The position numbers and the translations under genes are program-made. The notes under the pieces are model-generated. The model made no database searches and was not told the DNA's origin. It worked only from the letters and a program-made list of their open reading frames with translations. Shown here piece after piece: positions 32,397 through 50,793 of a stretch of DNA of 64,000 bases. The first letter of the stretch is position 1, and the number at the start of each line of letters is the position of its first letter. This stretch comes from Chloroflexota bacterium (lineage in GTDB: Bacteria; Chloroflexota; Anaerolineae; UBA4142), in the NCBI GenBank assembly GCA_016219275.1, contig JACRBM010000038.1, positions 1 through 64,000 of the forward strand. The letters run 5' to 3'.

Positions 32397-33125
32397 ATGT
32401 CCTACGCTTGGCAACGCCCTCCAAATCAATTAACGCTCGAACCCAACCAGATTCACGTGTGGCGCATCACGCTCGATTCGTCTGCGCGCGCGGATGATTT
32501 AAGCGCGCTCCTCTCACGTGATGAACGCGCGCGCGCTCAGGCATTTCATTTTCCCGAACATCGCGCGCGGTTCATCGTCGCGCACGCAAGTGTGCGCTTG
32601 ATTCTCGCGCGCTATACGCGCATCGCGCCGCCAGACCTGGCTTTCGCTACGGATGTATTCGGCAAACCGGAATTGATTCAACCCACGCCCGTTCTGCGTT
32701 TCAACCTGGCGCATTCCGAAAATCTCGCGCTCTGCGCGATCACCGCGCACGCGCCCATCGGCGTGGATGTCGAATTCATCAAGCCGCTTGAGAACCGCGC
32801 CGACATTGCCGCGCGATTTTTTTCGCCACGCGAAGTTGCCGCGTTGCGCGCACTGCCCGCCCATCAACACACGCGCGGTTTTTTCAATTGTTGGACGCGC
32901 AAGGAAGCGTACATCAAAGCGATCGGCAAAGGTCTGAGTCAACCGCTCGACGAATTCGACGTTACGCTCGCGCCCGGCGAACCGGCGCGATTGTTGTTTG
33001 CGCGCGATGATCCGTTCGCGTCAGAACGCTGGTCGCTCTTCGCGCTCGAACCCGCGCCAGGGTACGTCGGCGCTATCGCGATTCAAGCGCGCGAACGCGA
33101 GTTGCGGTGCTGGCGGTTCGAGTAA
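32397..33125 (+). CDS. Sfp-type 4'-phosphopantetheinyl transferase
   Basis: 242 residues. It transfers the phosphopantetheine arm from coenzyme A to the Ser of carrier proteins, as required by every PCP in this window. Core motifs are complete: GVDVE with the metal-binding Asp124 and Glu126, and FNCWTRKEAYIKAIGKGL with Glu170 and Lys in the WxxKEA motif. Also seen are HFPEHRARFIVAHASVRLIL and FNLAHSENLALCAI, typical of the Sfp/HetI group. Its stop is 8 bp from the end of the convergent C-PCP-TE gene, placing it at the edge of locus B. Its own promoter suggests expression independent of the minus-strand operon. Confidence 0.95.
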   Translation: MSYAWQRPPNQLTLEPNQIHVWRITLDSSARADDLSALLSRDERARAQAFHFPEHRARFIVAHASVRLILARYTRIAPPDLAFATDVFGKPELIQPTPVLRFNLAHSENLALCAITAHAPIGVDVEFIKPLENRADIAARFFSPREVAALRALPAHQHTRGFFNCWTRKEAYIKAIGKGLSQPLDEFDVTLAPGEPARLLFARDDPFASERWSLFALEPAPGYVGAIAIQARERELRCWRFE

Positions 33126-33133
33126 TTGCCAAT

Positions 33134-35563
33134 TTACTCACGCCCATTGTTCAAATGCTTTTGTAAATACTCGCCCAACGCCTTGACCTGCGGCTCCATC
33201 AACATTCCCAGATGATCTTGCGTTTGCATCGGGCAAAGCGTGACTTGATTTTGAATCCACGCGTTCCAACCGTAATCCAACGCGAGGTCGGGTTGTTCGC
33301 TCCGAATTAGAATCGCGTTGCCGCGATACGGTTGCGCGGCATAGCGCGTGAGCAATTGCGCGTTCCACTGCAAATGGTACAAGCCGCGAATCTTCCCGGA
33401 CACCGGCAATCCCAAACGCGTGTTGATGTGATAAATCGTCATCCACACCGCATCGCGCGCGGCATAAACGCGATTGCGCGTTTCCCAATACACGCGCCGC
33501 GCGATGCGCCGCAAAACGTATCCGATTTTTTGCCGCCCATTCATCGTCGCCATCCGCGCGGCGTGCTTCTGCGCGCGTTCGGCGCGCGGCGCGTTCGGCG
33601 AAAAATCCGGACTCGTCGCGTCCACCAGCACGAGCAATTTCACTTGCTCGCCGGCGCGTTGCAACTGTTGCGCCATCTCGAACGCGACAATGCCCCCAAA
33701 ACAAAATCCGCCCAACGTATACGGTCCGCGCGGTTGCACCGCGCGCACCTCGCGCACATACTCGCGCGCCATTGCTTCGATGCTTGCGGGTGACGCTTCG
33801 CCGGGACGCCCCCCGGATTCTTGAATGCCGTACAGCGGTTGCGCTGGATCGAGATAACGCGGAATGTTGGCAAAACCATACGTGCCGCCCGCGCCATGAT
33901 GCACCAAGAAAAACGGCGGACGCGTGCCCGCCGGTTGAATCGGCACGAGATATTGCCACGGACTCGGCGCGACGCCGTCGCTGATCGCCTGCGCCAACGC
34001 GCGAATCGTCGGCGCTTGAAAAAGCACATAGACCGGTAATTTCCGCTCGAATTCCTTTTCGATTTTCGCGATGAGTTGCAATGCCTGCAACGAAGCGCCG
34101 CCGAGTTCAAAAAAATTCGCGTTCGCGCTGATCGCCGATTTTCCCAAGACCTGACTCCACAACGCGAGCAAACGCGCTTCGATGCTGTTGCTCACCGTTT
34201 CGATTTTTGCCGGAACCTGGGTCGCGCGCGATGGGGTTGTGTGCGCGCGCCAGGGTTTATCGGCGGGGATCCGCCGCGCCAACGCGCCCACCGTTTGCGC
34301 GGCATCGTTCGCCAGATGCTCCAGCAAACTTTGCAGACGCGTCAGAATTTCCGTCGCGGTGTTTTCATCGAACCGCGCCGCGTCGTAACCAAGCCAGAGC
34401 AAAACACGTTCGCCTTCATCCATCGCCGCCAACGTCAACGGAAAATTCGTCGTCAAGCCGCCTTTGAACGGACGCAAATCGAGCGCGTTCGCCTGCGCCG
34501 ATTTGATCGCGGCTTGAAATAGAAACAGATTTTCAAAGAGCGGCGCGCGCGCGTCCAACTCCGCCCACTCTTGCAGCGCGACCGGCGAAACATACTCGAA
34601 CTGTCTCTGCGCGAGTTGTTTTCTTTGTAGTTGCATGAGCCATGTCCACACCGCGTCGTCATCCCGCCAGCGCGCGCGGAGCGGCAAGTTGTTGATGAAC
34701 GATCCCAGCATCGTCTCGACGCCGGGCAATTCAGGCGGACGACCTGAAACCGTGACGCCCAACACCAGGTCGTTGCTTGCCGACCAACGGCTCAACACGA
34801 GCGTCCACATTCCAAGCAAGAGCGTGTTGAGCGTCAGTTGATTTTGCGCGGAGAGTCGGCGCAGTGCTTTCGTCGTGGATTCGGCGAGCGCGCGTTCCGC
34901 GTGGCGATACTCGCTCGCGCCGGCGGCAGGCGGCAAAATTGACGTGGGTTTCACTTCGCGTAATTCAGCGCGCCAAAACGATTCCGCCGCCGCGCGGTCT
35001 TGCTTTTGCAACCAAGCGATGTAATCGCGAAACGGTCGCCGCGTGTCCGGCGGTATCGCTTCGCCGTGCATCTGCGCGCGATAGAGCGCGGCGAGTTCGT
35101 TCAACACGAGCGGAATGCACCAACGGTCGAGTATGAGATGATGACTGCTCCACACCAGGTAATGCACATCGTCCGCGATCTGGATCAACGCGACGCGCAT
35201 CAACGGCGCGTGAGTCAGTTTGAATCCGCGCGCGCGGTCGCGCTCCAGAAATTCATTCAGACATTTTTCGTGGTCCGACGCCGGCGTCGCGCGCCAATCG
35301 TGTTTTTCAAATTCGAGCGTTGCCGACTCGCGCACGACCTGAACCGGCTCTTTCAACTTTTCCCACACGAACGCCGTCCGCAAAATCGCGTGTCGCGCGA
35401 CGAGTTCGCGCCATGCGCGTTCGAACGCATCCACATCCAACGCGCCGCGCGCGATGTACACGAGTTGATTGAACAACACCGACGATTGCGCCGCGCCGAG
35501 CGAATGGACGAGCATCAATTCTTGCATCGGCGAGAGCGGGTAAATGTCTTGAACGTTTTTCAT
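33134..35563 (-). CDS. Terminal NRPS C-PCP-TE without adenylation domain; TE with Cys nucleophile
   Basis: 809 residues. C about 1-440 starts MKNVQDIYPLSPMQELM (DCL-like, fitting the preceding epimerase) and has HHLILDRW (H141, H142, D146), with Arg where Gly is usual. No A domain follows. PCP about 455-530 has Ser491 in LGGAS. The thioesterase about 540-809 has GGFCFGG, so the nucleophile is Cys621 instead of Ser, with Asp648 (LVDATS) and His784 (QDHLG). Without its own A domain the PCP must be loaded in trans, or the C domain only condenses or transfers a chain. Cys-type TEs are known from SulM (sulfazecin) and ObiF (obafluorin), where they make strained rings; other Cys TEs simply hydrolyse. 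A palindrome lies just upstream. Confidence 0.93.
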   Translation of the reverse strand: MKNVQDIYPLSPMQELMLVHSLGAAQSSVLFNQLVYIARGALDVDAFERAWRELVARHAILRTAFVWEKLKEPVQVVRESATLEFEKHDWRATPASDHEKCLNEFLERDRARGFKLTHAPLMRVALIQIADDVHYLVWSSHHLILDRWCIPLVLNELAALYRAQMHGEAIPPDTRRPFRDYIAWLQKQDRAAAESFWRAELREVKPTSILPPAAGASEYRHAERALAESTTKALRRLSAQNQLTLNTLLLGMWTLVLSRWSASNDLVLGVTVSGRPPELPGVETMLGSFINNLPLRARWRDDDAVWTWLMQLQRKQLAQRQFEYVSPVALQEWAELDARAPLFENLFLFQAAIKSAQANALDLRPFKGGLTTNFPLTLAAMDEGERVLLWLGYDAARFDENTATEILTRLQSLLEHLANDAAQTVGALARRIPADKPWRAHTTPSRATQVPAKIETVSNSIEARLLALWSQVLGKSAISANANFFELGGASLQALQLIAKIEKEFERKLPVYVLFQAPTIRALAQAISDGVAPSPWQYLVPIQPAGTRPPFFLVHHGAGGTYGFANIPRYLDPAQPLYGIQESGGRPGEASPASIEAMAREYVREVRAVQPRGPYTLGGFCFGGIVAFEMAQQLQRAGEQVKLLVLVDATSPDFSPNAPRAERAQKHAARMATMNGRQKIGYVLRRIARRVYWETRNRVYAARDAVWMTIYHINTRLGLPVSGKIRGLYHLQWNAQLLTRYAAQPYRGNAILIRSEQPDLALDYGWNAWIQNQVTLCPMQTQDHLGMLMEPQVKALGEYLQKHLNNGRE

Positions 35564-35615: not shown

Positions 35616-37544
35616 CTATTCCCCATCCACCTCAGCCAGCGCGTTTGCGATCTGACTCAGGTCGTTTTGGTTGAGCGATGCGAGCGCGAAATCGGACGCG
35701 GTTACGCCGCTCGCGTTCGACGATTGGCAGTGTCGAATCAATTGCCGCAACGCGTCCGCGAATCGCGCGGCAAGTCGTGCGATCGTTTCCGCGCGATGCG
35801 CATTCTCGCTGAAGGTCCAGACCGCGTGAAACGCGCCGTCGCGAATGTAACTGTTAATCTCGATGAGATATTGGCGCGCGTCGTCGGGATGCCGCGCCTC
35901 GCCGACCGACTCGGCAACTGGCTCGAACAAGCCGCGCGCGTGTTGCGTTTCGTCCAAGCGTCCCAAATAGTTGAACACGATTTCAGGTTCGGGGAGCGCG
36001 GATAATTTTTCGCGCGTCTCGGCGTCGCGCGACAAGTAACGCAAGATGCCGTGTCCGATGCCGTGATTCGGAATCGCGCGCAGTTGCTCTTTGACGGCAA
36101 CGAGTGTTTGTCCCCAATCCGCGTGCGCTTCAACTTGCAACGCGACGGGAAACACCGTCGTGAACCAGCCAACCGTGCGCGAGACATCCACGCCCTCGAA
36201 GAGCGATTCGCGTCCGTGTCCTTCGAGCGCGAGCAAAACGGAATTCGCGTTCGTCCACTCTGCCAACACGCGCGCGAGCGCGGTCAACAACGCGTCGTTG
36301 ATCTGCGTGCGATATGCTGGCGGCACGTCGTGCATCAGCGCGCGCGTTTCTTCGGCATCGAGCGCGACCGTAACCGTTTGCGCCGAACGCACCGAGTTGT
36401 CCGCACGCGCGTCGAAATCGCGCGGCAGGGTTGCGCGTGTGCCGAATTTCGCATCGAGCCAGAACGCGCGCTCCTGGATCAGCGCCGGTGATTCCGCGTG
36501 CGCGGCTTGCTGTTCGCTCCACTGTTTGAACGAGGTCGTCTTGGGCGCAAGTTGCGCCTGGCGATAGATCGTTTCGAAATCTTGCAAAAGCACGCGCCAC
36601 GAAAGATTGTCCACGACCAGGTGATGGCAAACGATCAACAATTCGCTTGCGCCAATCTGCGCGAACCGAATCAGCGCGCCTGTTTCGAGATTCAGTGCGC
36701 GATGCAAACGCGTCGCGATTTTTTCGACCGGTTCATCGCGCGCGATTGGTTCGAACGGAATCTCCGCCAACATCCCCAAAAATTCCTGATGCCATTTTCC
36801 GTCGGCTTGCCAAAACCGCGCGCGCAGTGCATCGTGTTGTTTCAAAAGTTGCGCGACTGTTTCGCGCGCGCGGGCGGGATCGAGCGATTCGTTCGCGCGC
36901 AACAAGAAACCTTGATTCCACTGTTGCGGTCGCGTGAGATTGTGCTCGAAGAACCAATGCTGAATTGGGGTCAGCGGAACCGCGCCGATCACTAATGTTT
37001 GCTCGGCAGTTTGCTTTTGCGATGCGGTTGCAATCGCGGCGAGAGCGGCAATCGTCGGATGATCGAACACGTCGGTCGGCGTAAAGAAAATATCGGCGCG
37101 CCGCGCGCGCGCGACGATCTGAATACACACCAGCGAGTCGCCGCCGATTTCAAAAAAGTTGTCGTGAATGCCGACTATTTCGAGACCCAACACCTCGGAC
37201 CAAATCTGCGCCAACTGTTTCTCGATTTCGTTGCGCGGCTCGACGAGCGCGGCGGACGCATCGGCAGGTGTCGCCGCGACATCGGGCAACGCCTTGCGAT
37301 CCACTTTGCCGTTCGGCATGCGCGGCAACGCGTCGAGCGCGATGATGTGCGCGGGCAGCATGTAATTCGGCAGTCGCGCGCCGAGAAAATTTTTGAGGTC
37401 GCCCGCGTCTGCGCCGTTTTTGAACACGACGTACGCAACCAGTTGTTTGCTCGCGTTCGCGTTCGGCGTCGCGCCGAGTTTTTGCGCGAGGCGCGCGCGT
37501 TGTTGTTGCGACAGCGCGGCGAGTCGTTCGGACAATTGGCTCAT
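35616..37544 (-). CDS. Split NRPS: A-domain C-terminal part, PCP, epimerase
   Basis: 642 residues. The ATG at 37544 overlaps the methyltransferase stop (ATGA) and fits MSQLSERLAALSQQQRARLAQKLG, a short helical start. From about residue 33 the sequence KQLVAYVV...LPNYMLPAHIIALDALPRMPNGKVDRKALP is the A9-A10 subdomain of an adenylation domain, including the catalytic Lys80. Motifs A1-A8 are absent here but end the 38496-41264 gene. PCP has Ser137 in IGGDS. The epimerase (about 175-620) has HHLVVDN (H307, H308, D312), with Asn for the usual Gly, then LEGHGRE and RTVGWFTTVFP. It should deliver a D-residue to the C domain of the next gene. The long open frame upstream of 37544 is an overlap with the methyltransferase gene and not coding. 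Confidence 0.92.
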   Translation of the reverse strand: MSQLSERLAALSQQQRARLAQKLGATPNANASKQLVAYVVFKNGADAGDLKNFLGARLPNYMLPAHIIALDALPRMPNGKVDRKALPDVAATPADASAALVEPRNEIEKQLAQIWSEVLGLEIVGIHDNFFEIGGDSLVCIQIVARARRADIFFTPTDVFDHPTIAALAAIATASQKQTAEQTLVIGAVPLTPIQHWFFEHNLTRPQQWNQGFLLRANESLDPARARETVAQLLKQHDALRARFWQADGKWHQEFLGMLAEIPFEPIARDEPVEKIATRLHRALNLETGALIRFAQIGASELLIVCHHLVVDNLSWRVLLQDFETIYRQAQLAPKTTSFKQWSEQQAAHAESPALIQERAFWLDAKFGTRATLPRDFDARADNSVRSAQTVTVALDAEETRALMHDVPPAYRTQINDALLTALARVLAEWTNANSVLLALEGHGRESLFEGVDVSRTVGWFTTVFPVALQVEAHADWGQTLVAVKEQLRAIPNHGIGHGILRYLSRDAETREKLSALPEPEIVFNYLGRLDETQHARGLFEPVAESVGEARHPDDARQYLIEINSYIRDGAFHAVWTFSENAHRAETIARLAARFADALRQLIRHCQSSNASGVTASDFALASLNQNDLSQIANALAEVDGE

Positions 37545-38329
37545 TTGACCGCCTTGATGACGACCATCGAATCCGCCCACCACGTATCGCGCAGGTCGGG
37601 CGGCAGGGTCAGTTTGACGCGCGCGAGTTCGAACGCGCGAAAGTGATTCAAGACCAATCGCTGATGCGCGCGGCTGAACGAATCCATCTCGTTCGTCATA
37701 TACGTGAAAATTCCGCCGTCGCGCAAATGCGCGGATGCGGTTGGGAAGAATTGTTCGGCGAACGTCACGCTGTTCAACACCTGCTCGACGTACTCGGTTT
37801 CGTTCAACGGAAACGTGTGAAAAAAAATTCCGTCGTACATTCCAAATTGAGCCACCGTGTCTTGCCACTTGCCTTGAATCAAGCGAATGTCGCGTTCGGA
37901 AAATTTCGCACGCCATGCGTGAAACCGCGCGATGACCGAATCGTTGCACTCGACCACCGTGTGCGATGTGACGCCGCACGCTTGAATGTATTCTGCCGAC
38001 ACGCCGCGCCCGAACCCAATTTCCAGCACGTCGCCGTGCGTTTGCGTGGCGATCTGCGCCATCGCACGCATCAACGGAATTTGCCAGTCTTCCATGATTT
38101 CGTCATCGGCGAGCGGCGCGTTGCCGCGTTCTGCGATGTGAACGCTTTCCGCGCCGGGCACAAAGCGCGCGGCAAGTTGATCGAGTTGATTCAGGTCGTC
38201 GGCGAATTCCGCCATCGCCTTGTTCAACAGCCAATTGCGTTGCGACGCGCGCGGCGGCGCGATGAAATTTTCGTTCTTGAGGTCGAGCGTCAGTTCAAAA
38301 TTTTGCGTGCGTTTGAGTTTGCGAGTCAT
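37541..38329 (-). CDS. SAM-dependent methyltransferase, guanidinoacetate-methyltransferase-like, between split A-domain genes
   Basis: 262 residues. The ATG at 38329 (MTRKLKRTQNFEL) is chosen because the frame further upstream runs through a palindromic repeat. Class I Rossmann methyltransferase: motif I DVLEIGFGRGVSAEYIQA, then HTVVECNDSVIARF, GKWQDTV, YDGIFFHTFPLNE and LRDGGIFTYM. The spacing and the VLEIGFG/HTxxECND/YDGIxxxTxPL pattern match the guanidinoacetate/arginine N-methyltransferase group better than standard NRPS N-methyl domains. In ordinary synthetases a methyltransferase domain sits inside A between A8 and A9. Here a free gene occupies exactly that position, between the gene ending in A8 and the gene starting in A9. 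It probably methylates the residue activated by the split module. Backbone versus side-chain methylation is open. Confidence 0.82.
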   Translation of the reverse strand: MTRKLKRTQNFELTLDLKNENFIAPPRASQRNWLLNKAMAEFADDLNQLDQLAARFVPGAESVHIAERGNAPLADDEIMEDWQIPLMRAMAQIATQTHGDVLEIGFGRGVSAEYIQACGVTSHTVVECNDSVIARFHAWRAKFSERDIRLIQGKWQDTVAQFGMYDGIFFHTFPLNETEYVEQVLNSVTFAEQFFPTASAHLRDGGIFTYMTNEMDSFSRAHQRLVLNHFRAFELARVKLTLPPDLRDTWWADSMVVIKAVK

Positions 38330-38339
38330 AAGTTCAATT

Positions 38340-38454
38340 CTGTCAATGCGAGCGCCGTTTGCGAAGCAATCCCCCTCCCCAACCCTCCCCCGCGCGCGGG
38401 GGAGGGCAGGGTGGGGGCGGAGATTGCTTCGTCGCTTTGCTCCTCCCAATGACA
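38340..38454. repeat. Palindromic repeat element with GC-rich central hairpin (same family as 42446 and 59175)
   Basis: The outer arms (TGTCAATGCGAGCG...GCGAAGCAATC and inverse) match the elements at 42446-42525 and 59175-59247. The centre carries an extra perfect GC-rich hairpin (38383-38406) resembling that at 54074-54098. It separates the end of the C-A gene from the start of the methyltransferase gene. Confidence 0.85.
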
Positions 38455-38495
38455 TCTGAGCGGTTCAATTCGTGAAGATTCGCGTGCTTCGCGGA

Positions 38496-41264
38496 TTAAC
38501 CAAGTTGCTCGATCTCGTCGAGCAGTTGCCGCGCGCGCGCGTTGCCGCGCGCTTCGAGTTGCGCAAGCAGACCGTCGTCGGCATCGCGCGTGATGACGAC
38601 CGCGTCTTGCGCGCCGGCGTATTGCTTGATCGCCGCTTCGATCTCTTCGACTTCGATGCGATAACCGCGAATTTTCACTTGATGATCCACGCGACCCAGG
38701 AAATCAATGTTGCCGTCGGGACGATAACGCGCGAGGTCGCCGGTTTTGTAAAGGCGGGTTGGGGAATTGCTAAATGGGAATTGGTAAATGGTAAATTTCT
38801 CCGCCGTCAAATCTTCGCGATGCCAATATCCGGGCGCAACACCATCGCCGCCGATGTACAACTCGCCGGCAACGCCGAGGGGAACGGGGCGCAAATGTGT
38901 GTCGAGAATGTACGCTTGCATGTTCGGAATCGGACGCCCAATCGAAACCTGGGTCGCGTCCGGCGGAATCGCGCACGCGGTTGCCCACACCGTGCCTTCG
39001 GTCGGACCGTACTCGTTGTAGAGCGTCGCGCGCGGCAAACGCGCGTAATGTTTCTGAATCAACGCGGCAGGACAGGATTCGCCCGCGACGATTACGACGC
39101 GCAACGAATCGAGCGCGCCGGGTTCCGCGTACTCGAGCACGAGATGGTAGAGCGAGGGAAGCGCGAGCGTGTGCGTTACGCGCCAGCGCGCGATGAGATC
39201 GCCGACGTAATTCACATCCTTCTCGCCGTCTTGATCGGGCAGGCACAACGCGCCGCCTTGCGCCAACGCCCAAAAAATTCCGGCGACCGAACTATCGAAC
39301 GCGAACGACGAGAGGAGCAAATAGCGTTCCGCTTTTTCCGGATAAAACGCGAAACGCGCGAACGTCGAATGAACGAGATGGCGATGCGTGATCGGCACGC
39401 CTTTCGGTTTGCCGGTCGAGCCGGACGTGTAAATGATGTACGCGAGTGAATCGGAAGTCGCATCGTTGGATAGTTGGATAGTTGGATAGTTGGCAATGGA
39501 TTCCCAGTCTGCATCGAGGCAAACGATGCGCGCGGTTGTGTGCGGCAACGCGTCGCGCCATCGCCGTTGCGTCAGCACCACCGGCGCATGCGTGTCGGAC
39601 AGCATGAACGCGAGACGTTCCGCCGGGTACGATGGATCGAGCGGGACGTACGCGCCGCCGGCTTGAAGCACGCCGACGATGCCGACGATCATTTCGAGCG
39701 AACGCTCGACGCACAAGCCGACACACACGTTCGCGCCGACGCCTTGCGCGCGCAAGAAATTCGCGAGACGATTCGCGCGCGCGTCGAGTTCGGCGTACGT
39801 CAAACATTCGTCGCGATAAAACACCGCGGGCGCGTCCGGCGTTTGCGCCGCGTGTTGTTCGATCAGCGTGTGCATCAACGCGTCGCGCGGGTAATCGCAT
39901 CGCGCGTTGTTCCACTCGACGAGCATCGTATCCAGTTCCGCGCGCGTCAACATTTCGACCTCGCCCACGCGTTGTTGGGAATGCGCGAGCATATTCGCCA
40001 AAATCGTTTGCAGATGCGCGAGTAGTTGGTCAACGATTGCCGGCGCGAAACGCGCGCGATCCGCGATGAGGTACAACTGCATCGCCGCGCCCGGCACGAC
40101 GAGCAGCGCGAGCGGAAAGTTGCTCTGCTCGGCGTGTCGAATCGCGCCGAGGTGAATGTTGCACGTCGGCGGCGTGAGCGAACCTTCGGTCGGATAATTT
40201 TCAAAAACGACAATCGTATCGAACAGCGCGCGCTGCTGTTGCATCTCGCTCCATGCGCGAATTTTCGCGAGCGACGTGTGTTCGTACTCGCGCAGGGCGA
40301 CGTTGCGCGCTTGCAATTGTTCGAGCCACGCATCGAGCGGCATGGCGGCGTCCACCGCCACGCGCAAGGGCAGCGTGTTGATGAACATGCCGATCATTTT
40401 TTCCGCGCCGTCCAAATCGAACGGTCGCCCCGCCATCGTTACGCCGAACAGCACCTCGTCCGCGCCGCTGTAACGATTAAGCAGAATCGCCCACGCGGCT
40501 TGGATCAGCGTGTTCAACGTCACGCGATTCGATTGCGCGAACGTTTGCAGCGCCGCGCTCGTTTCGGCGGACAACGCGACGCGTGTTTGAATGTAGCCCG
40601 CTTCGCCCGTTGTGCGCGATTCGATTTCCAATTTCGTCGGCGCTTCCAAGCCGCGCAGTTCGGCGCGCCAAAATGATTCCGCGCGCGTGTGATCGCGTTG
40701 CGCGAGCCAACGAATGTAATCTTGAAACGGTCGCGGCGACTCGCGCGAAAATGTTTCGCCGCGACAAAGCGCGTCGTAACATGCCAACACCTCGCGCAGG
40801 ACGAGGTAGGTTGACCACCCGTCCATAATCAGATGTGAGTAACTCCAGACGAAGCGATGCGCGTGCGGCGCGGTGCGGATTAAACGCAAACGCATCAGCG
40901 GCGCACGCGTCAATTCAAATCCTTGCGCGCGATCCGCGCGCAAAATTTCCTCTAGCCGCGCGTCCTGTTCGGCTGGGTCGCGCGACGACCAATCCTCGAT
41001 CTGCCAATCCAGTTCGACGCGTTCGCGTACGATCTGCAACGGCTGATCGCGTTTCTCCCACGTGAACAAGGTTCGCAACGCAGCGTGCCGATTCGCGATC
41101 ATCTCCCACGCGCGCGTGAACGCGTCGCGATTCAGTTCGCCGTCAAGTTCGCAAATCAATTGCTGAACGTAGACGCCGCTGTTCGGCGATTGGATGACGT
41201 GAAACAGCATCCCTTCTTGCGTGGGCGTGAGTGGATAAATCGCTTGAATGTTTCCGGTGGTCAT
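38496..41264 (-). CDS. Split NRPS: C domain plus adenylation domain truncated after A8
   Basis: 922 residues, starting in ATGA overlap with the previous NRPS stop. C about 1-440 has YSHLIMDGW: the catalytic His144 and Asp148 are present, but the first His of HHxxxDG is Ser143. The IYPLTPTQEGM start is DCL-like, as expected after an epimerase. The A domain about 470-885 has YTSGSTG at 612 and D657 as the first pocket residue. The pocket reads D-S-A-L-I-A-E-V-W, an assignment I do not recognise. It ends soon after A8 (KIRGYRIEVEEIEAAI), with a helical tail (LLAQLEARGNARARQLLDEI) replacing A9-A10, which lie two genes downstream. The protein can adenylate only if the two parts assemble in trans. 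Just after the stop lies a fragment of the CCGCGAATC repeat. Confidence 0.92.
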   Translation of the reverse strand: MTTGNIQAIYPLTPTQEGMLFHVIQSPNSGVYVQQLICELDGELNRDAFTRAWEMIANRHAALRTLFTWEKRDQPLQIVRERVELDWQIEDWSSRDPAEQDARLEEILRADRAQGFELTRAPLMRLRLIRTAPHAHRFVWSYSHLIMDGWSTYLVLREVLACYDALCRGETFSRESPRPFQDYIRWLAQRDHTRAESFWRAELRGLEAPTKLEIESRTTGEAGYIQTRVALSAETSAALQTFAQSNRVTLNTLIQAAWAILLNRYSGADEVLFGVTMAGRPFDLDGAEKMIGMFINTLPLRVAVDAAMPLDAWLEQLQARNVALREYEHTSLAKIRAWSEMQQQRALFDTIVVFENYPTEGSLTPPTCNIHLGAIRHAEQSNFPLALLVVPGAAMQLYLIADRARFAPAIVDQLLAHLQTILANMLAHSQQRVGEVEMLTRAELDTMLVEWNNARCDYPRDALMHTLIEQHAAQTPDAPAVFYRDECLTYAELDARANRLANFLRAQGVGANVCVGLCVERSLEMIVGIVGVLQAGGAYVPLDPSYPAERLAFMLSDTHAPVVLTQRRWRDALPHTTARIVCLDADWESIANYPTIQLSNDATSDSLAYIIYTSGSTGKPKGVPITHRHLVHSTFARFAFYPEKAERYLLLSSFAFDSSVAGIFWALAQGGALCLPDQDGEKDVNYVGDLIARWRVTHTLALPSLYHLVLEYAEPGALDSLRVVIVAGESCPAALIQKHYARLPRATLYNEYGPTEGTVWATACAIPPDATQVSIGRPIPNMQAYILDTHLRPVPLGVAGELYIGGDGVAPGYWHREDLTAEKFTIYQFPFSNSPTRLYKTGDLARYRPDGNIDFLGRVDHQVKIRGYRIEVEEIEAAIKQYAGAQDAVVITRDADDGLLAQLEARGNARARQLLDEIEQLG

Positions 41265-44200
41265 GGTTCTGTAAACTCAGCGAGAATTTCGTCTAACTGG
41301 GTTTGGTTCAATCGCGCCTCTGGAAAATCAGAGGGCGTGAGCGCGCGCGCGTTTTCTGTGCCATCAATCAACGCGCACAAATGCGCGCGATAATTTTGCG
41401 CGAGTTGTTCAATCGTCGCGCGTTGGTGCAGACGCGCGCCGAACGTCCAGTCCACGCGCAACGCGTCGTCCGCGATGTGCGCGTTGACTTCGAGCGCGTA
41501 TGGTCTTTGCGCGCGCGGACTGCGCGCGAGTTGCAACGGTCCCGCCAACTGAAAGCGCGTTGAATCCGCGGCGACCGCGTCGAACTGTCCCAGATAGTTG
41601 AACAATACGTGCGGCGCGACGGCGAGCGCGGCATCGTTTGCGAGATAACGCAAAACGCCGTAATCGAGTCCGTGATTCGGCAGCGCGCGCAGAGTTTCTT
41701 TGATCTGCTTGAGCGTCTCGACGCGCTGGGCGCGCGCGGTCAAATTGACCGGGAAGATCGCGGTGAACCAGCCGACCGTACGCGATAGGTCCACCTCGGC
41801 GAACAAATCCTCGCGTCCGTGTCCTTCGAGCGTGATCGTGTGCGCGGCGCGTCCCGTCCAATCGGACAAGGTGTGCGCGAGCGCGGTGAGGAGCAGATCG
41901 TTGATCTGCGCGTTGAACCGCGCGGCGACCTCGCGCATCAATCGCCGCGTGTCGTCCACGTCGAGCGCGATCGAGATTGTCGCCGCGTGCGCTTGCGCGT
42001 TGTCGCCGCGCGCATCGAACGGAATTTCGATGGACGCGTCCTGGGTTTGCGTCAGCCAAGCATTGCGATGGACGCGTGCGCCGGCGTACTCGCTCAATTT
42101 TTCCGACCACTGCTTGAACGACGTCGTCTTGGGCGGCAACGCGACCGCGCGATGTTCTTCGAGTTGATCGCACGCGGTTTCCAAATCCTTGAGCAAGACC
42201 CACCACGCCACGCCATCCACCGCGAGATGATGCGCGGCGATCACCAAGCGCGGCGGATGCGCGTCACCGCGATTGACCCACAACGCGCGCAACATCCTGC
42301 CGCGTTCGAAATCCAAACTCGTTTGCAACTTGTCCGCCGCGCGTGCGAGTTCGGTTTCTTGCGCCGAGTCACGCAGATGCGACAGGTCAATTTCATCGAG
42401 AACATCTTGCTGCGCGTCTAGGGCTTTGGGTAAGTCGCGCCCGTCTGTCATTGCGAGCGGTTTTTGCGAAGCAATCTCCAAGTTGCTTGGGGACTGCTTC
42501 GCTCCGCTCGCAGTGACATTCGGACTTGGACCAAGCCCTAGCGCGCCTGCTTCGAGTGTTTGCCGCCAGCCGTTTTCGTCGCGCGTGAATCGCGAACGCA
42601 ACGCGTCGTGATGCGCGAGCAAATGGCGCAACGCGTTCGCGAGCAGCGCGGGATCGGTGCGCTTGGTGATATCGAGTTGCAGAGTTTGATTCCAGTGATG
42701 CGCGTCCGCGAAATTCTGTTCGAAGAACCAATGTTGAATCGGCGTGAGCGGCGCATCGCCGGTAACGACGCCTTGCTCCGCGCGCGCGCGCGTCTGCGCG
42801 ACCGCGACGCTCGCCAACTCGGCAATCGTTTGATGCTGAAACAATTGACTCGGCGTGAGTTTCAAGCCGACTTGATTCGCGCGCGCGATCGTTTGGATGT
42901 TCAGAATCGAATCGCCGCCGAGTTCGAAAAAGTTGTCGTGGATGCCGACGCGTTCGATTCGCAACACCTTGCGCCAAATTTCGGCGAGCAATTTTTCGGT
43001 CGGCGTGCGCGGCGCGACGAACGTCGCCGACAGTTCGGGACGCGATTCGCCGGGACGCGGCAATGCCTGACGATCCACTTTGCCGTTCGGCGTCAGCGGC
43101 AGTTTGTCGAGTCGAATGAAATGCGCGGGAAGCATAAAGGCAGGCAACTGTTGTGCGAGATGCGCGCGCAGTTCCGCCGGCGTGAGCGGCTTGTCCGAAA
43201 CGAAATATGCCGCGAGCCGATTCGTCTCCGCGTCCTGCGCCGGTTCGACGTAGCCGATTTCGTTCAGGATGCGCTGGACGCGCGCCGCGTCAATGTCGTC
43301 GTCGAGTTCTTGTAGCGCGGCGTCGCGCGTTTTGTGTCCCAGTCGCACGTCCCAACTGTACGGCAACGCGTAATTGTGAAAGCCGCGCTGTTTCTTGTGA
43401 AGGTAAATGCCGACTTCGTTGATGAGACAATTCGTCGAGCGACCCGTGTCCGCCGGACGAATCCAGGGCGCGTGTTCCGTCAAGAACGCGTACACCTCGG
43501 CAAGCGACACGTCGCAGTAGCGATAAAAATCAACGAACTGGATGTTGTCGAAGAGCGCGTCGTCGCGAAAGACATCCACGTCGAGTTTGTGCGAGATCAC
43601 ATCGTCGCGGCGATGGTACGCCTTGCGCGCCGCGATCACGGCTTGGTCAAGCGCGGCGGGATCGAAATCGGGCGCGAGGAAAACGTCCTCGGTCAAGCGC
43701 GTTTCGAAAAATTGCCCGCGCGACAAGCCGGTCACGATGTAGCGGATGTTTTGCTCGCGCGCGAGATTGACCGCGAGCGTGTAAATCGTTTTGAAACAAC
43801 CGTTGCAGACGTTCGCATACTGCTTCAAACTGTCCGCAAAAATCGCGTTCATGTGCGGCGTGGTTCCGAAAACGTGATCCACGCCGAGCGCCTGCACGAC
43901 GCGCACGATATTCGCTTTCGCGGATTCGGAGATGTAGCCGTTGTCGAGCGAAAAGACGAGCGGCGTGAGACCCAGCTCGACGAGGCGATACAGCATGTAC
44001 GTGCTGTCCTTGCCGCCGCTCAACAACGCGATGCAATCGTACTTGCCGGCGCGCGCGGCGCGCATCTGCGCGACGATGGCGCGCAGATCGTCCATCGTCT
44101 TGAAATATCGTTGCGCCTTGTCTTTGTACGTGTCGAACGCGCGGCAAAAATTGCACACGCCGTTCGCGTCGTAACTCGCGCCGGGAAAATTCGACGCGAG

Positions 44201-46945
44201 TCCGCAGCGCGCGCAAAAGAAAACGTCTTGTGTAACGCGCGCGGGTTTGACCACATCCACCACGCACTCACGCACGTCGGAATGCGCGAGCAAGCGCGCT
44301 TCGATCTCGCCGAGTTCGATACGCGCGCCGCCAACTTTGACTTGATGATCCGCGCGACCCAGGAATTCGAGTTGACCGCCGGCAAGCCACCGCGCGAGGT
44401 CGCCGGTTTTGTAAAGGCGCAATTGGGAATTGGGAATCGGGAATCGGGAATTGAGGAATCGTTCCGCCGTCAGGTCATCGCGACCGAAATATCCGCGCGC
44501 CAGTCCGTCGCCTGCGATGTACATTTCGCCGATGACGCCGGTGGGCGTGGGATTGAGATGTTGATCGAGAACGTAAATTTGCGCGTTGTCGGCGGGCTTG
44601 CCAATCGGCACGGACAGCGCGCGGTCGCGTTCCGCATCGAAGCGATGAATCATGCAACCGACGGTCGCTTCGGTCGGACCGTACTCGTTGTAGATTTCGA
44701 TTGGCTTATCAAACGCGCGCGTGATCGCGCGGGCGAGTTCGGTTTTGAAATCTTCGCCGCCGACGATGAGCGCGCGGACGCGCGACGCGCGCAGATCAGA
44801 ATCGCGAATCAGTGCGAGGTGCGCGGGCGTGAGTTTGATAATATCCACCGCGTTGTCCGCAATCACTTTTAGAATCGCCGTCCCGCGCGCGTCGGGATCG
44901 TCGCGATAGACGACGAGGCGTCCGCCGGAAATCAACGGCGTGAAAATGGAGGTTACCGTGAGATCGAACGACAACGATGAAAAGAGTGGAAATGCGAGCC
45001 GCTCGCCTTGCGTGTACACCCTTTTTGCCCACCAAATATAATTCGTCAACGCGCGATGTTCGATCATCACGCCTTTGGGTTTGCCGGTCGAGCCGGAAGT
45101 GTAAATCACATAAGCAAGCGAATCGGAATTAATTGGTGATTGGGAATTGGTGATTGGACGCGCTGCGTGGAGATCGAGAAACTCGGTGTCCAAACACAAG
45201 ACGGTTCCATCGAATTCGAGAACGCGATTCTTGAGATGCGATTGCGTCAACACCATGGGCGCGCGGGTGTCGGCGAGAATTAGCGCGAGGCGTTCTGGCG
45301 GGTACGCCGGATCAACCGGGACGTACGCGCCGCCCGCTTTGAGGACGCCGAGAATCGCGACGACGACCTCGCTGGAATGTGCCATGTAAATCACGACGCG
45401 TTGCTCTGGCGCAATGCCGCGCCCGCGCAAGTGATGCGCGAGTTGGTTCGCGCGCGCGTTCAGTTCCGCGTACGTCAAGCGCGCGCCTTCAAACTCGATC
45501 GCGATGTCGTCCGGGTTTTGCGCGGCTTGTTGCTCGAACAGCGCGACGACGGTTTGCTCCGCCGGGTACGGCGTCGCGGTGCGATTGTATGCGACGACGA
45601 GCGCCTGATGTTCGGCGTCGCTCTGCAAACTGATCGCGTTGAGCACGCGCGCGCGGTCGGCAAGGAACGCGTCCACGACGCGCAAGAATTGTTGAATCGT
45701 CCACGCGCGTTGCGCTTCGTCGAACACGCTCGCGTTCAAATCAAAGTGCAATGTGAAATTGCCGGTCGCGCCGAAATCGTGGACTTGCAAACGCAAACTG
45801 TGATTGCTGTCGCCGTAACCGGCATGAATCCACTCGACCTGTGGCGTCATTCCCGCAAAATCGGGAAACGCGACGTTGACATAGTTGAGCAAAATCTCGT
45901 ACGCGCGATTGCGCTCCGCGCTACTCACGCCGGGTTGCGCGTATCGCAACGCGTTCAACACCTCGCGCGAAACTTTTTTGTGGAGCGATGCAAACGTATC
46001 GTCGTCCGCGACCTCGAACGTGAGCGGACAAATTTCGATGAACACGCCGACCGTGTCCTTGTGCGCCGCCGTCGCGCGATTGTGGAACGGCACGCCAATC
46101 GTCAAGCGCGCATTGCCGCTGACGCGATGGAGATACGCACTCATCAGCGTCGCAAAGATCGCGTAGAGCGACAGGTCTTGGCTCAACAGGCGCATCCCCG
46201 GCGCGTTCGCGAGCGCGCGCAGTTGCGCGGAGCGTTCCGCACCCAAATCCAACGCAACGCGTTCGGTGCGCGCGCCGCGTGAGGCGGGAACGCGATTGAA
46301 AAATTCGATCGGTTGCGACGCGGGCGTTTGCGCGCGCCAGTACGCGTCCGCCTGCGCGAATTGCGGCGTCGCGCGAAACGCGCGTTCGTAATCGGCGTAC
46401 TCGCGGAACGTCGGACGCGCGGGCAGATCGCGTAGATCGTTTTGCAACGCGCGCGCGTACAACTCCGCCATTCGTTTGTACACGACGACGAACGACCAGC
46501 CGTCGGTGATGAGGTGATGTTGATTGAGATACCAGACGAATCGCGCGGGCGCGAGTTGGACAAGGCACGATTCGAACAGACGCGCACGCAGATCACAGAC
46601 GCGCGCGCGCCGCGCGTCGAGCCATTCTGCAAACGCGGCTGGGGGATCGTCCGCGCGCGAAAGATCAATCCACTCGACCGCGTAATCGAGTTGCGGCAAG
46701 ACGCGTTGCTGCGGCGCGCCGTCGAGCTCGACGACGACGGTGCGGAGCGCGTCGCTCTGATTGATCAACGCCTGGAACGCGCGTTGAAACGCGGCGCGGT
46801 CAATCGCACCGTCGAACGCGAACGCCTGAATCATATTGTAGAGCGGCGCGTCGGGATCGAGTTTTTGCCCCAGCCAAATGAGAAACTGGGTGTTGGTGAG
46901 ATTCGAACGTTCGCGCAGCGTGTTATCGGAAATCGGCAATGCCAC
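41261..46945 (-). CDS. NRPS C-A[PP-loop ATPase]-PCP-E of locus B (Asn code)
   Basis: 1894 residues. C about 15-450 with HHLITDG (H143, H144, D148) begins NLTNTQFLIWLGQKLD, an initiation-type C domain. It probably accepts the pyrrolyl group from the free PCP upstream. A about 470-1300 has YTSGSTG at 615 and D661. The pocket reads D-L-T-K-I-G-E-V-G, an Asn code identical to that of the 292-8802 A2 domain. Between A8 and A9 about 340 residues of a Cys-rich PP-loop ATPase are inserted (listed separately). A10 ([15 protein letters not shown]) follows. PCP has Ser1346 in LGGDS. The epimerase about 1385-1880 has HHLAVDG (1572-1578). It contains an in-frame palindromic repeat (residues about 1474-1500). 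It ends in ATGA overlap with the next NRPS gene. Confidence 0.94.
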   Translation of the reverse strand: MALPISDNTLRERSNLTNTQFLIWLGQKLDPDAPLYNMIQAFAFDGAIDRAAFQRAFQALINQSDALRTVVVELDGAPQQRVLPQLDYAVEWIDLSRADDPPAAFAEWLDARRARVCDLRARLFESCLVQLAPARFVWYLNQHHLITDGWSFVVVYKRMAELYARALQNDLRDLPARPTFREYADYERAFRATPQFAQADAYWRAQTPASQPIEFFNRVPASRGARTERVALDLGAERSAQLRALANAPGMRLLSQDLSLYAIFATLMSAYLHRVSGNARLTIGVPFHNRATAAHKDTVGVFIEICPLTFEVADDDTFASLHKKVSREVLNALRYAQPGVSSAERNRAYEILLNYVNVAFPDFAGMTPQVEWIHAGYGDSNHSLRLQVHDFGATGNFTLHFDLNASVFDEAQRAWTIQQFLRVVDAFLADRARVLNAISLQSDAEHQALVVAYNRTATPYPAEQTVVALFEQQAAQNPDDIAIEFEGARLTYAELNARANQLAHHLRGRGIAPEQRVVIYMAHSSEVVVAILGVLKAGGAYVPVDPAYPPERLALILADTRAPMVLTQSHLKNRVLEFDGTVLCLDTEFLDLHAARPITNSQSPINSDSLAYVIYTSGSTGKPKGVMIEHRALTNYIWWAKRVYTQGERLAFPLFSSLSFDLTVTSIFTPLISGGRLVVYRDDPDARGTAILKVIADNAVDIIKLTPAHLALIRDSDLRASRVRALIVGGEDFKTELARAITRAFDKPIEIYNEYGPTEATVGCMIHRFDAERDRALSVPIGKPADNAQIYVLDQHLNPTPTGVIGEMYIAGDGLARGYFGRDDLTAERFLNSRFPIPNSQLRLYKTGDLARWLAGGQLEFLGRADHQVKVGGARIELGEIEARLLAHSDVRECVVDVVKPARVTQDVFFCARCGLASNFPGASYDANGVCNFCRAFDTYKDKAQRYFKTMDDLRAIVAQMRAARAGKYDCIALLSGGKDSTYMLYRLVELGLTPLVFSLDNGYISESAKANIVRVVQALGVDHVFGTTPHMNAIFADSLKQYANVCNGCFKTIYTLAVNLAREQNIRYIVTGLSRGQFFETRLTEDVFLAPDFDPAALDQAVIAARKAYHRRDDVISHKLDVDVFRDDALFDNIQFVDFYRYCDVSLAEVYAFLTEHAPWIRPADTGRSTNCLINEVGIYLHKKQRGFHNYALPYSWDVRLGHKTRDAALQELDDDIDAARVQRILNEIGYVEPAQDAETNRLAAYFVSDKPLTPAELRAHLAQQLPAFMLPAHFIRLDKLPLTPNGKVDRQALPRPGESRPELSATFVAPRTPTEKLLAEIWRKVLRIERVGIHDNFFELGGDSILNIQTIARANQVGLKLTPSQLFQHQTIAELASVAVAQTRARAEQGVVTGDAPLTPIQHWFFEQNFADAHHWNQTLQLDITKRTDPALLANALRHLLAHHDALRSRFTRDENGWRQTLEAGALGLGPSPNVTASGAKQSPSNLEIASQKPLAMTDGRDLPKALDAQQDVLDEIDLSHLRDSAQETELARAADKLQTSLDFERGRMLRALWVNRGDAHPPRLVIAAHHLAVDGVAWWVLLKDLETACDQLEEHRAVALPPKTTSFKQWSEKLSEYAGARVHRNAWLTQTQDASIEIPFDARGDNAQAHAATISIALDVDDTRRLMREVAARFNAQINDLLLTALAHTLSDWTGRAAHTITLEGHGREDLFAEVDLSRTVGWFTAIFPVNLTARAQRVETLKQIKETLRALPNHGLDYGVLRYLANDAALAVAPHVLFNYLGQFDAVAADSTRFQLAGPLQLARSPRAQRPYALEVNAHIADDALRVDWTFGARLHQRATIEQLAQNYRAHLCALIDGTENARALTPSDFPEARLNQTQLDEILAEFTEP
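42446..42525 (-). repeat. Palindromic repeat inserted in frame in the NRPS epimerase domain
   Basis: An 80-bp imperfect palindrome (TGTCATTGCGAGCG...CGCTCGCAGTGACA) on the coding strand. It encodes SPNVTASGAKQSPSNLEIAS, a peptide repeated almost exactly in the LuxR-type regulator at 59175-59247. It lies in a loop of the epimerase after RFTRDENGWRQTLEA, where such domains normally continue directly to a DLS segment. Confidence 0.92.
43225..44250 (-). other. PP-loop (AANH-type) ATPase domain embedded in an adenylation domain
   Basis: Sub-region of the NRPS at 41261-46945, residues about 900-1240. It starts with a four-Cys knuckle (C911, C914, C931, C934 in CARCG and CNFCR). The PP-loop follows, ALLSGGKDST (S976-T982), with Lys979 and Asp980. 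A third CxxC (C1047, C1050 in CNGCF) comes next, then IRYIVTGLSRGQFFETRL and a conserved-looking C-terminal stretch (RPADTGRSTNCLINEVG...NYALPYSWDVRLGHK). PP-loop ATPases adenylate a carbonyl oxygen for attack by N or S, as in GMP synthetase, TtcA, and sugar amidotransferases of the WbpG type. Chemistry on the bound Asn is inferred. The insertion site is the A8-A9 hinge. Confidence 0.85.
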
Positions 46946-47039
46946 GGCAGTTGCTCCGAAAAAAATTAGATGGCGGTTTTGCGTAGGGGCACATCTTGTG
47001 CGTGCCCAGTCTGGGCAACCACGCGAGTCGCCCCGACAT

Positions 47040-47312
47040 CTACGTTTCCATTCGCTTGCTCAAATACTCTGCCATCGCGTCGAGCGTTTGGAAATTTTCA
47101 ATCACGACATCCTCGGGTGGAATCGTCGTTTTGAATTCCGTTTCGATGAACGCGATCATCCGCACCGCGCCGAGCGAATCCACCAGCCCGCTCAGCAACA
47201 GATCGTCGTCGTCGCGCAATTCGATGGCGCGTCCCAGCAACAACTCGCCGAGGATGAATTGGCGCAAAGATTCTTTTACGTCCATTTGAAAGATAGTCTG
47301 GGTCATCATCAT
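47040..47312 (-). CDS. Free peptidyl carrier protein of the pyrrole starter cassette
   Basis: 90 residues. Small acidic four-helix carrier with the phosphopantetheine site GLVDSLG (Ser46), the form seen in PltL-type carriers that hold proline during its oxidation to pyrrole-2-carboxylate. The start is set by ATGA overlap with the upstream membrane protein stop. The next gene, the elongation NRPS, starts 94 bp further on and lacks its own loading module, so this PCP is its likely donor. Confidence 0.9.
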   Translation of the reverse strand: MMMTQTIFQMDVKESLRQFILGELLLGRAIELRDDDDLLLSGLVDSLGAVRMIAFIETEFKTTIPPEDVVIENFQTLDAMAEYLSKRMET

Positions 47313-48052
47313 GTCGGGGATTGCTCCAGGGATTTTGGATTTTCAATTTTGGATTTGCGATTTGCGATTGATAATCTAGCTTTGACGGCGATGAAACCTG
47401 TGATCTGCATCGCGACGGCAATCGCGACAAGGACAATCAACGGCGCGCGCAACAGCGCATCGCGTTGCTCGATGGTCTGATAAAGCAAAGCATGAGTAAC
47501 GATGAACGCGAACGCGAGATAACTCGTCCGTTGAAGCCACTTCCAGCGCCGCGTGCCGAGTCGTCGCAAGGCGATGTTGTTCGAAATGACCAGTAGCATC
47601 GCGAGAATGCCTGCCTGCGCGAGCGCGATGTAATTCGCCAACCCGAACAGATTCGCTTGAATCGGAAAGGGATTGTGCGCGTTGGGCAAATGCTGAATCC
47701 AGTACCACCAAATGCGCCAACCGCCCGGCGCGTGCACGGTTACGGCGAACGCGATGTGCGCGAACGCGATGCTCGCCGCCCAGATGCCGACATCGCGGCG
47801 CAACATATAATTCGCGGGAGGCGCGCGATGGCGCAGAACGTACAGCGGACCGAGCGCGAACGTCGCGACGATGAACGTCAGCGCGGTGTACGCGAACGCG
47901 AGACTCAAACGCCAATTGAGCCAATCGGCTTTGCGACCCGAGCCGTCTTCCCACTGCTCCGGCGAAAAACCGAGCGCGCTAAAAATCGTCGCGATGCTGA
48001 TTGCGGCGATGAGCGCGAGGATGAGATGGCGGTTACGTCGTTTCGTGTCCAT
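47309..48052 (-). CDS. Ferric-reductase-like transmembrane (heme b) protein in the pyrrole cassette
   Basis: 247 residues from the ATG at 48052, which overlaps the end of the adenylation gene by 20 bp. The longer frame to 48178 lies inside that gene. Six hydrophobic segments are present. His residues in IAFAHIAFAVTVHAPGGW and LAFAFIVTHALLYQ are placed as in the ferric reductase-like/YedZ (MsrQ) transmembrane family, which carries b-type heme. There is no flavin or NADPH domain. Its location between the prolyl-AMP ligase and its PCP suggests a role with the flavin-dependent prolyl dehydrogenase, perhaps electron removal to the membrane. That is inference; pyrrole cassettes I know of do not require such a protein. 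Confidence 0.78.
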   Translation of the reverse strand: MDTKRRNRHLILALIAAISIATIFSALGFSPEQWEDGSGRKADWLNWRLSLAFAYTALTFIVATFALGPLYVLRHRAPPANYMLRRDVGIWAASIAFAHIAFAVTVHAPGGWRIWWYWIQHLPNAHNPFPIQANLFGLANYIALAQAGILAMLLVISNNIALRRLGTRRWKWLQRTSYLAFAFIVTHALLYQTIEQRDALLRAPLIVLVAIAVAMQITGFIAVKARLSIANRKSKIENPKSLEQSPT

Positions 48053-49613: not shown

Positions 49614-49645
49614 TTGAATCCCGTAAGGCAAATTTGAAATTTGCC

Positions 49646-50791
49646 TTACAATCCCAGCAAGCGCGCGATAATGTTGCGCTGAATGTCCGATGTGCCGCCG
49701 TAAATCGGTCCGCCCAACGCGTCGCGCAGATCGCGCTCGATTTCGAATTCGGTCACGTACCCGCGCGCGCCGTGAATGCGCGCCGCGTCGAGCGACGATT
49801 GCGCGAAACTTTCGCCGACGAATAGATTCGCAAGCGCGGCGTCGAGCATCGCGGACTGATTCGTTTGTTTGAGCCACGCGGCTTTGTACGTCAGCAGGCG
49901 CGCGGTTTCGAGCCGCAATTTCATTTCCGCGACGCGATTCGAAATCGCTTGAAATTTTCCGATGGGTTGACCGAACGCGTGCCGTGCGCGCGCGAAGCGA
50001 ATGCACGCGTCGAGTTGACGTTCCATCGCGCCGATCTCGCTCGCGAGAATGCACGCGCGTTCCCACTCTTGCGACGAGTTGAACATGCTCGCGCCCGCGC
50101 CTTCGGGACCCAAACGATTTTCCGTCGGGACGAAACAATCTTTCAGCGTGAGTTTGCCCATCGGCACGGTGCGCAAACCCATCTTGTCCATCACCGCGCT
50201 CGTCTCAAATCCGCGCGTGCCGCGTTCGACAAAAAAAATGCTGATGCCCCAGTTGCCGCGTTGCGGATTCGTCGTCGCAAAGATCAACGCGAGATCGGCG
50301 AGCGGCGCAAAAGTGATGAAGGTTTTTTCGCCGTTCAACAAATAGCCGTCCTCGCGTTTCGTCGCCGTCGTGGCAAGCGCGAACGCGTCGGAACCGGTTG
50401 CGGGTTCGGTCATGCCGTAGCACGCGATCATTTCGCCCTTGCACAAGCGCGGTACGTACCGTTCCTTTTGCGCCGCGCTCGCAAAGCCGGTGATCGTCGG
50501 CAGGATGCTCGTCAATTGCGCGCTGATCGCAAAGGTCAAGCCGTTGTCGCGGCACGCGTACCCCAGCGCTTCGAGCGCGAGCGTTGTCGAGAGCGCGTCT
50601 TTGCCTTGCCCGCCGTACTCGCGCGGCGCGTTCAATCCGAGCAAGCCAAACTCGCCGCACTTGCGCCAATGCTCGCGCGAAAAAATTCCCTGCTTGTCGC
50701 GCGCGATCAGATCGCCGCCGAGTTCGCGTTGCGCGAATTCGATGATCGCGTGACGGAGTTCGCGTTGTTCGTCGGTGAGAGAGAAATCCAT
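49646..50791 (-). CDS. Acyl-CoA-dehydrogenase-like flavoprotein, prolyl-S-PCP dehydrogenase (PltE/RedW-like)
   Basis: 381 residues from the ATG at 50791 (MDFSLTDEQRELRHAIIEFAQ). Full-length ACAD: YGMTEPATGSDAFAL and GEKTFITFAPLADLAL in the beta domain, RQLDACIRFARARHAFGQPIGKFQAI, and IYGGTSDIQRNIIARLLG at the end. The Glu usually found in IYEGTSEIQ is Gly here. Glu244 in EWERA lies where isovaleryl-CoA- and prolyl-dehydrogenases carry the base. The expected reaction is FAD-dependent four-electron oxidation of prolyl-S-PCP to pyrrole-2-carboxyl-S-PCP. It starts 2 bp after the ornithine cyclodeaminase stop and ends 32 bp before the ligase start. Confidence 0.9.
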   Translation of the reverse strand: MDFSLTDEQRELRHAIIEFAQRELGGDLIARDKQGIFSREHWRKCGEFGLLGLNAPREYGGQGKDALSTTLALEALGYACRDNGLTFAISAQLTSILPTITGFASAAQKERYVPRLCKGEMIACYGMTEPATGSDAFALATTATKREDGYLLNGEKTFITFAPLADLALIFATTNPQRGNWGISIFFVERGTRGFETSAVMDKMGLRTVPMGKLTLKDCFVPTENRLGPEGAGASMFNSSQEWERACILASEIGAMERQLDACIRFARARHAFGQPIGKFQAISNRVAEMKLRLETARLLTYKAAWLKQTNQSAMLDAALANLFVGESFAQSSLDAARIHGARGYVTEFEIERDLRDALGGPIYGGTSDIQRNIIARLLGL

Positions 50792-50793
50792 CG

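Follow-up and report, generated by a model that had tools for sequence, protein, structure and literature searches.

A probable split adenylation domain encoded with a free methyltransferase by three genes of a Chloroflexota NRPS cluster

Introduction

An adenylation (A) domain of a nonribosomal peptide synthetase (NRPS) is usually regarded as a single folding unit within a single polypeptide chain. In interrupted A domains, such as those of TioS and KtzH, a methyltransferase is situated between motifs A8 and A9 and the tethered amino acid is methylated (PMC11355689, PMC8949500); in KtzH the methylation is on the side chain (PMC11355689, PMC8949500). In the corallorazine system, the proteins Crz1.2 and Crz2 adenylate glycine in vitro only when mixed (PMC11342130). 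This two-piece A domain works, and the principle that an A domain can be split and still function is therefore already known. For the product side, module 5 of the evybactin NRPS is described as giving D-His(3-Me), with an epimerase after it (PMC11711294).

Here, we describe a locus within a 64,000-nucleotide stretch of a Chloroflexota genome (contig JACRBM010000038.1), further called the window. The A-M-A regions of TioS and KtzH are single polypeptides, whereas the corresponding parts in the window are encoded by separate genes. Very likely, this is a naturally split NRPS A domain whose separate polypeptides would assemble in trans into a histidine-activating and histidine-methylating module.

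Results

Anatomy of the split module

The following features make up the module and its junctions.

38496-41264, minus strand: C domain and A-domain core with motifs A1-A8, with a C-terminal tail after A8 (Pfam, specificity code)
38499-38624, minus strand: tail of the C-A protein after A8, its pattern kept across the family and helical in the model of relative L034
37541-38329, minus strand: stand-alone guanidinoacetate-methyltransferase (GAMT)-like SAM methyltransferase (MT), 262 aa (GAMT similarity, homologues)
35616-37544, minus strand: (A9-A10)-PCP-E protein (Pfam, TIGR01720)
37479-37544, minus strand: N-terminal extension of the (A9-A10)-PCP-E protein (MSQLSERLAALSQQQRARLAQ), two predicted helices (model)
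37277-37448, minus strand: latter half of the C-terminal A subdomain, with A9, A10 and the invariant Lys80 (Pfam AMP-binding_C, positions 27-76 of 76)
38468-38500, minus strand: short dispersed repeat in which the C-A gene has its TAA stop (91% to another copy)
38337-38459, minus strand: dispersed palindromic repeat between the C-A stop and the MT start (own-genome matches)

In the C-A protein, Pfam assigned residues 7-446 to Condensation and 469-814 to AMP-binding; AMP-binding_C was absent from this protein, and motif A8 (GRVDHQVKIRGYRIE) stood at the end of the ORF. The ORF of the (A9-A10)-PCP-E protein began just before A9 (LPNYMLP), with A10 (NGKVDRKAL) also at its start. Its residues 33-80 matched AMP-binding_C at profile positions 27-76 of 76 only; a PCP (110-170) and a Condensation-fold part (187-619) followed, the latter matching TIGR01720, which is typical of epimerization domains.

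A sequence-only reading of this DNA had proposed that the first protein ends after A8 and that the last one carries A9 and the A10 lysine, and both proposals agree with the domain assignments. The same reading saw a free SAM methyltransferase at the place where embedded methyltransferases sit. The position held; the enzyme is of the GAMT type and not of the type normally embedded. The MT start that it had used, 38455, turned out to be too early: homologues align from MTRKLKRT, at ~38329, and the leader 38455-38329 (MSLGGAKRRSNLRPHPALPRARGRVGEG...) is a dispersed repeat with many copies in the genome.

Read along the gene order, the locus holds the full set of motifs A1-A10 with a catalytic domain between A8 and A9. 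The insert and both A parts are not on a single polypeptide but are distributed over three ORFs, in the window as well as in 27 related loci. Judged from such comparisons, the three genes look like a working three-protein unit and not a broken gene.

Gene junctions and related loci

A collection scan with the methyltransferase as the query produced 28 loci, on which we mapped the C, A-core, MT, A9-A10, PCP, E, TE and amidotransferase domains and recorded shared ORFs. The A1-A8 half, the MT and the A9-A10 half were three separate ORFs in 19 of the scanned loci (L015-L033). Searching around Dokdonia and around a gammaproteobacterium gave eight further records with the same three-ORF split; some of these may represent additional assemblies of species counted before. 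By record title, this three-piece form was present in Chloroflexota, Pseudomonadota, Rhodothermota, Bacteroidota and Planctomycetota; among the named strains with these boundaries were Dokdonia pacifica DSM 25597, Hyunsoonleella ulvae HU1-3 and Arenibacter amylolyticus AK53. In four clean loci (L034-L037) the MT was fused behind the A1-A8 half, and the A9-A10 half was a separate ORF; L039 resembled them, with a frame break inside the methyltransferase. The two-piece form occurred, again by record title, in Calditrichota, Krumholzibacteriota and Planctomycetota. A continuous A-MT-A gene was found in none of the loci.

Of 349 Flavobacteriaceae genomes searched, 11 carried the MT, each time in a short frame of its own, and five loci from this family (L024, L025, L028, L029, L030) had two tandem carrier-protein domains after the A9-A10 half. 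An MT search around the window's own genome at E 1e-10 returned that genome only, among 400 sampled from the phylum, and a search of plasmids gave no match. A stand-alone MT (L002/L042), 35% identical and with non-NRPS neighbours in the stretch read, was taken as a distant relative and excluded from the family, while two outlying MTs without a split A domain (L038, L040) served as tree outliers only.

The distance between the C-A ORF and the MT varied across loci from -4 to +166 bp; between the MT and the A9 ORF it was -4, -1, 0, +1, +2 or +78 bp in the clearly assigned three-piece loci, with start codons that were chosen automatically and of which a few are uncertain. In the window, the MT and A9 ORFs share an ATGA overlap (37541-37544). 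The A/MT boundary of the window is a 166-bp gap, compared to a 4-bp overlap in close Anaerolineae relatives. The C-A stop codon (38496-38498) falls inside the short repeat, and most of the 44 own-genome matches to the junction stretch searched lie within the palindromic repeat. The 4-bp overlap in the close relatives shows that the repeats were not the cause of the split; they inserted at a gene border that was already there. A repeat-induced break of a once continuous gene was ruled out, as relatives without the repeats are split identically.

Dispersed repeats exactly at the first junction, one of them carrying the stop codon, and a frame change with a 4-bp overlap at the second are also what one could expect from a sequencing or assembly frameshift or from a decaying pseudogene, with the locus being in reality one continuous C-A-MT-A-PCP-E gene broken by repeats. 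However, the same boundaries recur in the 19 and 8 other loci, named strains included, with differing gaps and overlaps, the pieces show purifying selection, and no continuous form was found among the loci. The comparison refutes this explanation for the family, and we consider it barely credible.

Alternatively, the split at the gene level could be undone at translation, by a programmed frameshift or stop-codon readthrough, to give one polypeptide. Overlaps of 1-4 bp, like those of translationally coupled genes, are present at many junctions, but ordinary translational coupling accounts for them. The junction geometry differs between genomes (-4 to +78 bp at MT/A9), which argues against programmed frameshifting. 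Moreover, in the gammaproteobacterial locus (L026/L074) the C-A ORF is separated from the MT and A9-PCP-E ORFs by a TE-PCP-C gene on the opposite strand, which makes a common reading frame or transcript of the two halves impossible there. Such rejoining is therefore highly improbable.

Sequence conservation and selection

For near relatives, in pairs with unsaturated dS, the ORFs of the A core, the A9 piece and the MT had dN/dS values of ~0.05-0.2. The exception was the A9 ORF of L032/L033, the most distant unsaturated pair, with dN/dS of ~0.5. For example, the two Dokdonia loci (L024/L025) gave ~0.10 for the C-A ORF, 0.05 for the MT and 0.11 for the A9-PCP-E ORF. By these ratios, the split pieces are under purifying selection. 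The tail after A8 was the least conserved part in most pairs compared, with dN/dS of ~0.2-0.6 versus ~0.05-0.09 for the MT, which makes docking the weakest step of the proposal.

The A10 lysine was invariant in 17 of the 17 aligned A9 pieces. Some isolated A cores bind substrate, and one might infer that the A core of the C-A protein works alone, the A9-A10 piece being a leftover linker before the PCP. The invariance of the lysine speaks against this, as does corallorazine, where the same truncation was inactive until the downstream protein was added (PMC11342130). We regard a self-sufficient core as very unlikely; complementation of the two halves is the preferred reading.

Structural models and the methyltransferase tree

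In the single-chain AF2 model of the window's A9-PCP part, N-terminal helices 2-9 and 13-23 were followed by a disordered stretch, and the A C-terminal subdomain was represented by strand-helix-strand only. The AF2 model of the A-MT fusion of L034 had a confident A core, a mostly confident MT core and a half subdomain of low confidence; its tail after A8 contained two helices (440-449, 452-474). These models, which are single chains built on shallow alignments and have low confidence at the half subdomain, fit the idea that the missing subdomain strands come from the partner protein and do not prove it. The sequence-only reading had also noticed helical extensions at both cut ends. Both are predicted to be helical and are conserved in pattern, and the terminal helices may possibly be docking elements.

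Among the matches listed, the TioS A-M-A structure 5WMM alone aligned over the full length of the fusion model. The alignment covered 573 residues over A and MT with an rmsd of 14.2 Å; domain content and order thus match, and the arrangement does not.

In the MT tree the fused forms made one clade (support 99/97), so that a single change of state suffices. The outliers L038 and L040 do not fix the root of the tree or the direction of the change (fusion vs fission). The window's MT grouped with two Anaerolineae (83/85).

Cluster neighbours

The genes around the module are the following.

32397-33125, plus strand: Sfp-type phosphopantetheinyl transferase (read from the sequence; homologues recur beside the cluster), convergent to the minus-strand cluster
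33134-35563, minus strand: C-PCP-TE terminal protein (Pfam)
41261-46945, minus strand: upstream C-A-PCP-E module with the A domain interrupted within one polypeptide (Pfam, TIGR03573, specificity code)
47309-48178, minus strand: small membrane protein resembling haem-binding subunits of reductases
~48033-49640, minus strand: stand-alone A domain beside the dehydrogenase, conserved in the family (Pfam)
~49646-50791, minus strand: acyl-CoA dehydrogenase like prolyl-carrier-protein dehydrogenases (best NCBIfam PigA/RedW, below curated cut-offs)
50794-51849, minus strand: ornithine cyclodeaminase-family protein (family match)

The A domain of the 41261-46945 protein has the code DLTKIGEVGK, read as Asn; this code is treated among the Asp/Asn/Glu/Gln codes (PMC12283262). 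Between its A8 and A9 we found an insert similar to N-acetyl sugar amidotransferases (~43256-44218, minus strand; TIGR03573 E 1.8e-37, below the curated cut-off), which recurs in several related clusters and is not among the known A-domain inserts in two reviews. It might turn the side-chain amide of Asn into an amidine.

These interrupted A domains served as a control. Eight of them with both flanks seen (the window, L068, L069, L070, L072, L075, L081, L082), several of which are in the same clusters as split A domains, had the insert at the same A8-A9 site and were each one continuous ORF. Hence, the split is a property of the MT module, not of the annotation or of A8-A9 inserts generally.

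The stand-alone A domain probably serves a proline starter, and the ornithine cyclodeaminase-family protein would supply the proline. A motif search of 47000-52000 found no carrier-protein gene for this starter; the carrier protein may be encoded outside this region, or its motif may have diverged.

Other observations concern further features of the window. Within the E domain of the amidotransferase NRPS a palindromic dispersed repeat is located in frame (42420-42520, minus strand); the stretch searched had 19 partial genome matches, and the HHxxxDG motif of this E domain is still present. Short repeat-like low-complexity stretches also occur in frame in A domains of this genome, at ~38755-38800 and 39480-39510 (minus strand; TTTACCATTTACCAATTCCCATTTAGCAATTCCCC, NYPTIQLSN). 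Another NRPS (292-8802, plus strand) has a PilZ domain (PF07238, E 5.9e-15) in its first A domain, at residues ~930-1155. The insert is located just before A9 and by eye is apparently a tandem pair with an RxxxR / NxSxxG-like pattern, which would make it possible that this A domain is c-di-GMP-responsive.

Substrate code and role of the methyltransferase

The split A domain of the window has the code DSALIAEVWK, where the tenth residue is Lys as assumed from A10, and every relative's split A domain with a readable code has DS[A/V/T]L[I/M/L]AEVWK. DSALIAEVWK was reported as a His code (PMC12283262), and the A domain of the C-A protein carries this His specificity code.

The MT is a GAMT-like SAM methyltransferase (E 4.3e-20); the GAMT family profile matched its SAM-binding core at E 5e-32, while NCBIfam gave no match and Pfam no family above cut-off. 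Its only solved relatives by sequence are guanidinoacetate N-methyltransferases, and the substrate could therefore differ from histidine. Guanidinoacetate itself is unlikely, given the NRPS context.

It is conceivable that the A halves complement each other and that the MT is an independent tailoring enzyme for another group, e.g., the amidine of the amidotransferase module. GAMT methylates an amidino nitrogen, and in Rhodohalobacter (L041, 5980-6798) the MT adjoins an amidotransferase module, and the stretch read there shows no split A domain. On the other hand, wherever a split A domain is present the MT sits between its halves or is fused to the A core, and throughout the 99/97 clade it is physically fused after A8. 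The MT and the His-code A domain also occur together in two loci in which no amidotransferase was detected (L073, L074), which makes histidine the likelier substrate. An independent MT thus appears unlikely, though it deserves attention. From the sequence context, the MT more likely methylates carrier-bound His, and the E domain that follows the PCP would then turn this residue into D-methyl-His.

Judging by the genes upstream, the peptide would start with a pyrrole-2-carboxyl group, and the amidotransferase-interrupted module would add an Asn-derived residue next. For the cluster family, a pyrrole-Asn-(methyl)His peptide is the predicted product; no product matching it was found in the literature searched.

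Discussion

In the proposed module, the C-A1-A8 protein would contribute the core with the active site as well as the initial portion of the mobile C-terminal subdomain, and the A9-A10-PCP-E protein would supply the rest of this subdomain, including the catalytic A10 lysine, together with the PCP and the E domain. The two halves would re-form one C-terminal subdomain. The GAMT-like MT, encoded where embedded methyltransferases sit, most likely acts in trans at that place. Histidine would be activated and loaded on the PCP of the A9-A10-PCP-E protein, the MT would methylate the tethered histidine, probably on the side chain, and the E domain would give D-methyl-His.

The suggestion of the sequence-only reading, that a C-A-MT-A-PCP-E module is cut into three polypeptides, is borne out by a three-ORF boundary kept across phyla, by the invariant A10 lysine and by purifying selection. 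Its view of a natural three-piece interrupted A domain has gained from the relatives and the related two-piece forms.

We also put forward, tentatively and with more doubt than belief, that the complex is obligate. The free MT would then be a scaffold joining the A halves, histidine activation would depend on it, and the family would be an intermediate step between a free and an embedded tailoring enzyme, with fusion to the A core having occurred once.

For NRPS engineering, a natural A domain made from separate proteins would offer split points that already exist in nature, and its terminal helices might be of use for docking. The series of three pieces, two pieces and the known one-piece interrupted A domains gives a route to studying the origin of the latter, within a cluster family spread over several phyla.

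Comparison with known systems

Our search of the open-licence literature turned up neither a three-piece A domain nor an A domain interrupted by an amidotransferase. By this search, the three-piece form is new; the split functional A domain itself is not, given corallorazine. Among the methyltransferases, GAMT (PDB 3ORH, 1XCJ) and the window's MT share the methyltransferase core and differ in the NRPS context, in the extra N- and C-terminal parts of the MT and in its predicted substrate, carrier-bound His. With regard to the residue, the evybactin NRPS resembles the window's predicted module in that the module yielding D-methyl-His also has an E domain.

The closest system is Crz1/Crz2. There, as in the window, the A domain is cut after A8, a methyltransferase is at the A8-A9 site, and A9-A10 with the T/PCP domain starts the next ORF. 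Crz1/Crz2 consists of two pieces, with the nMT on Crz1 and glycine as the substrate, compared to three pieces, a free MT and a His code in the window, which, unlike Crz1/Crz2, also has an E domain after the PCP. The Crz nMT is described as a conventional N-methyltransferase, versus the GAMT-like MT here. Thus, the window has the corallorazine-type border after A8 with A9-A10-T on the next protein, whereas an MT joined to the C-terminal end of the A1-A8 half is seen only in L034-L037, the two-piece relatives that match the Crz topology.
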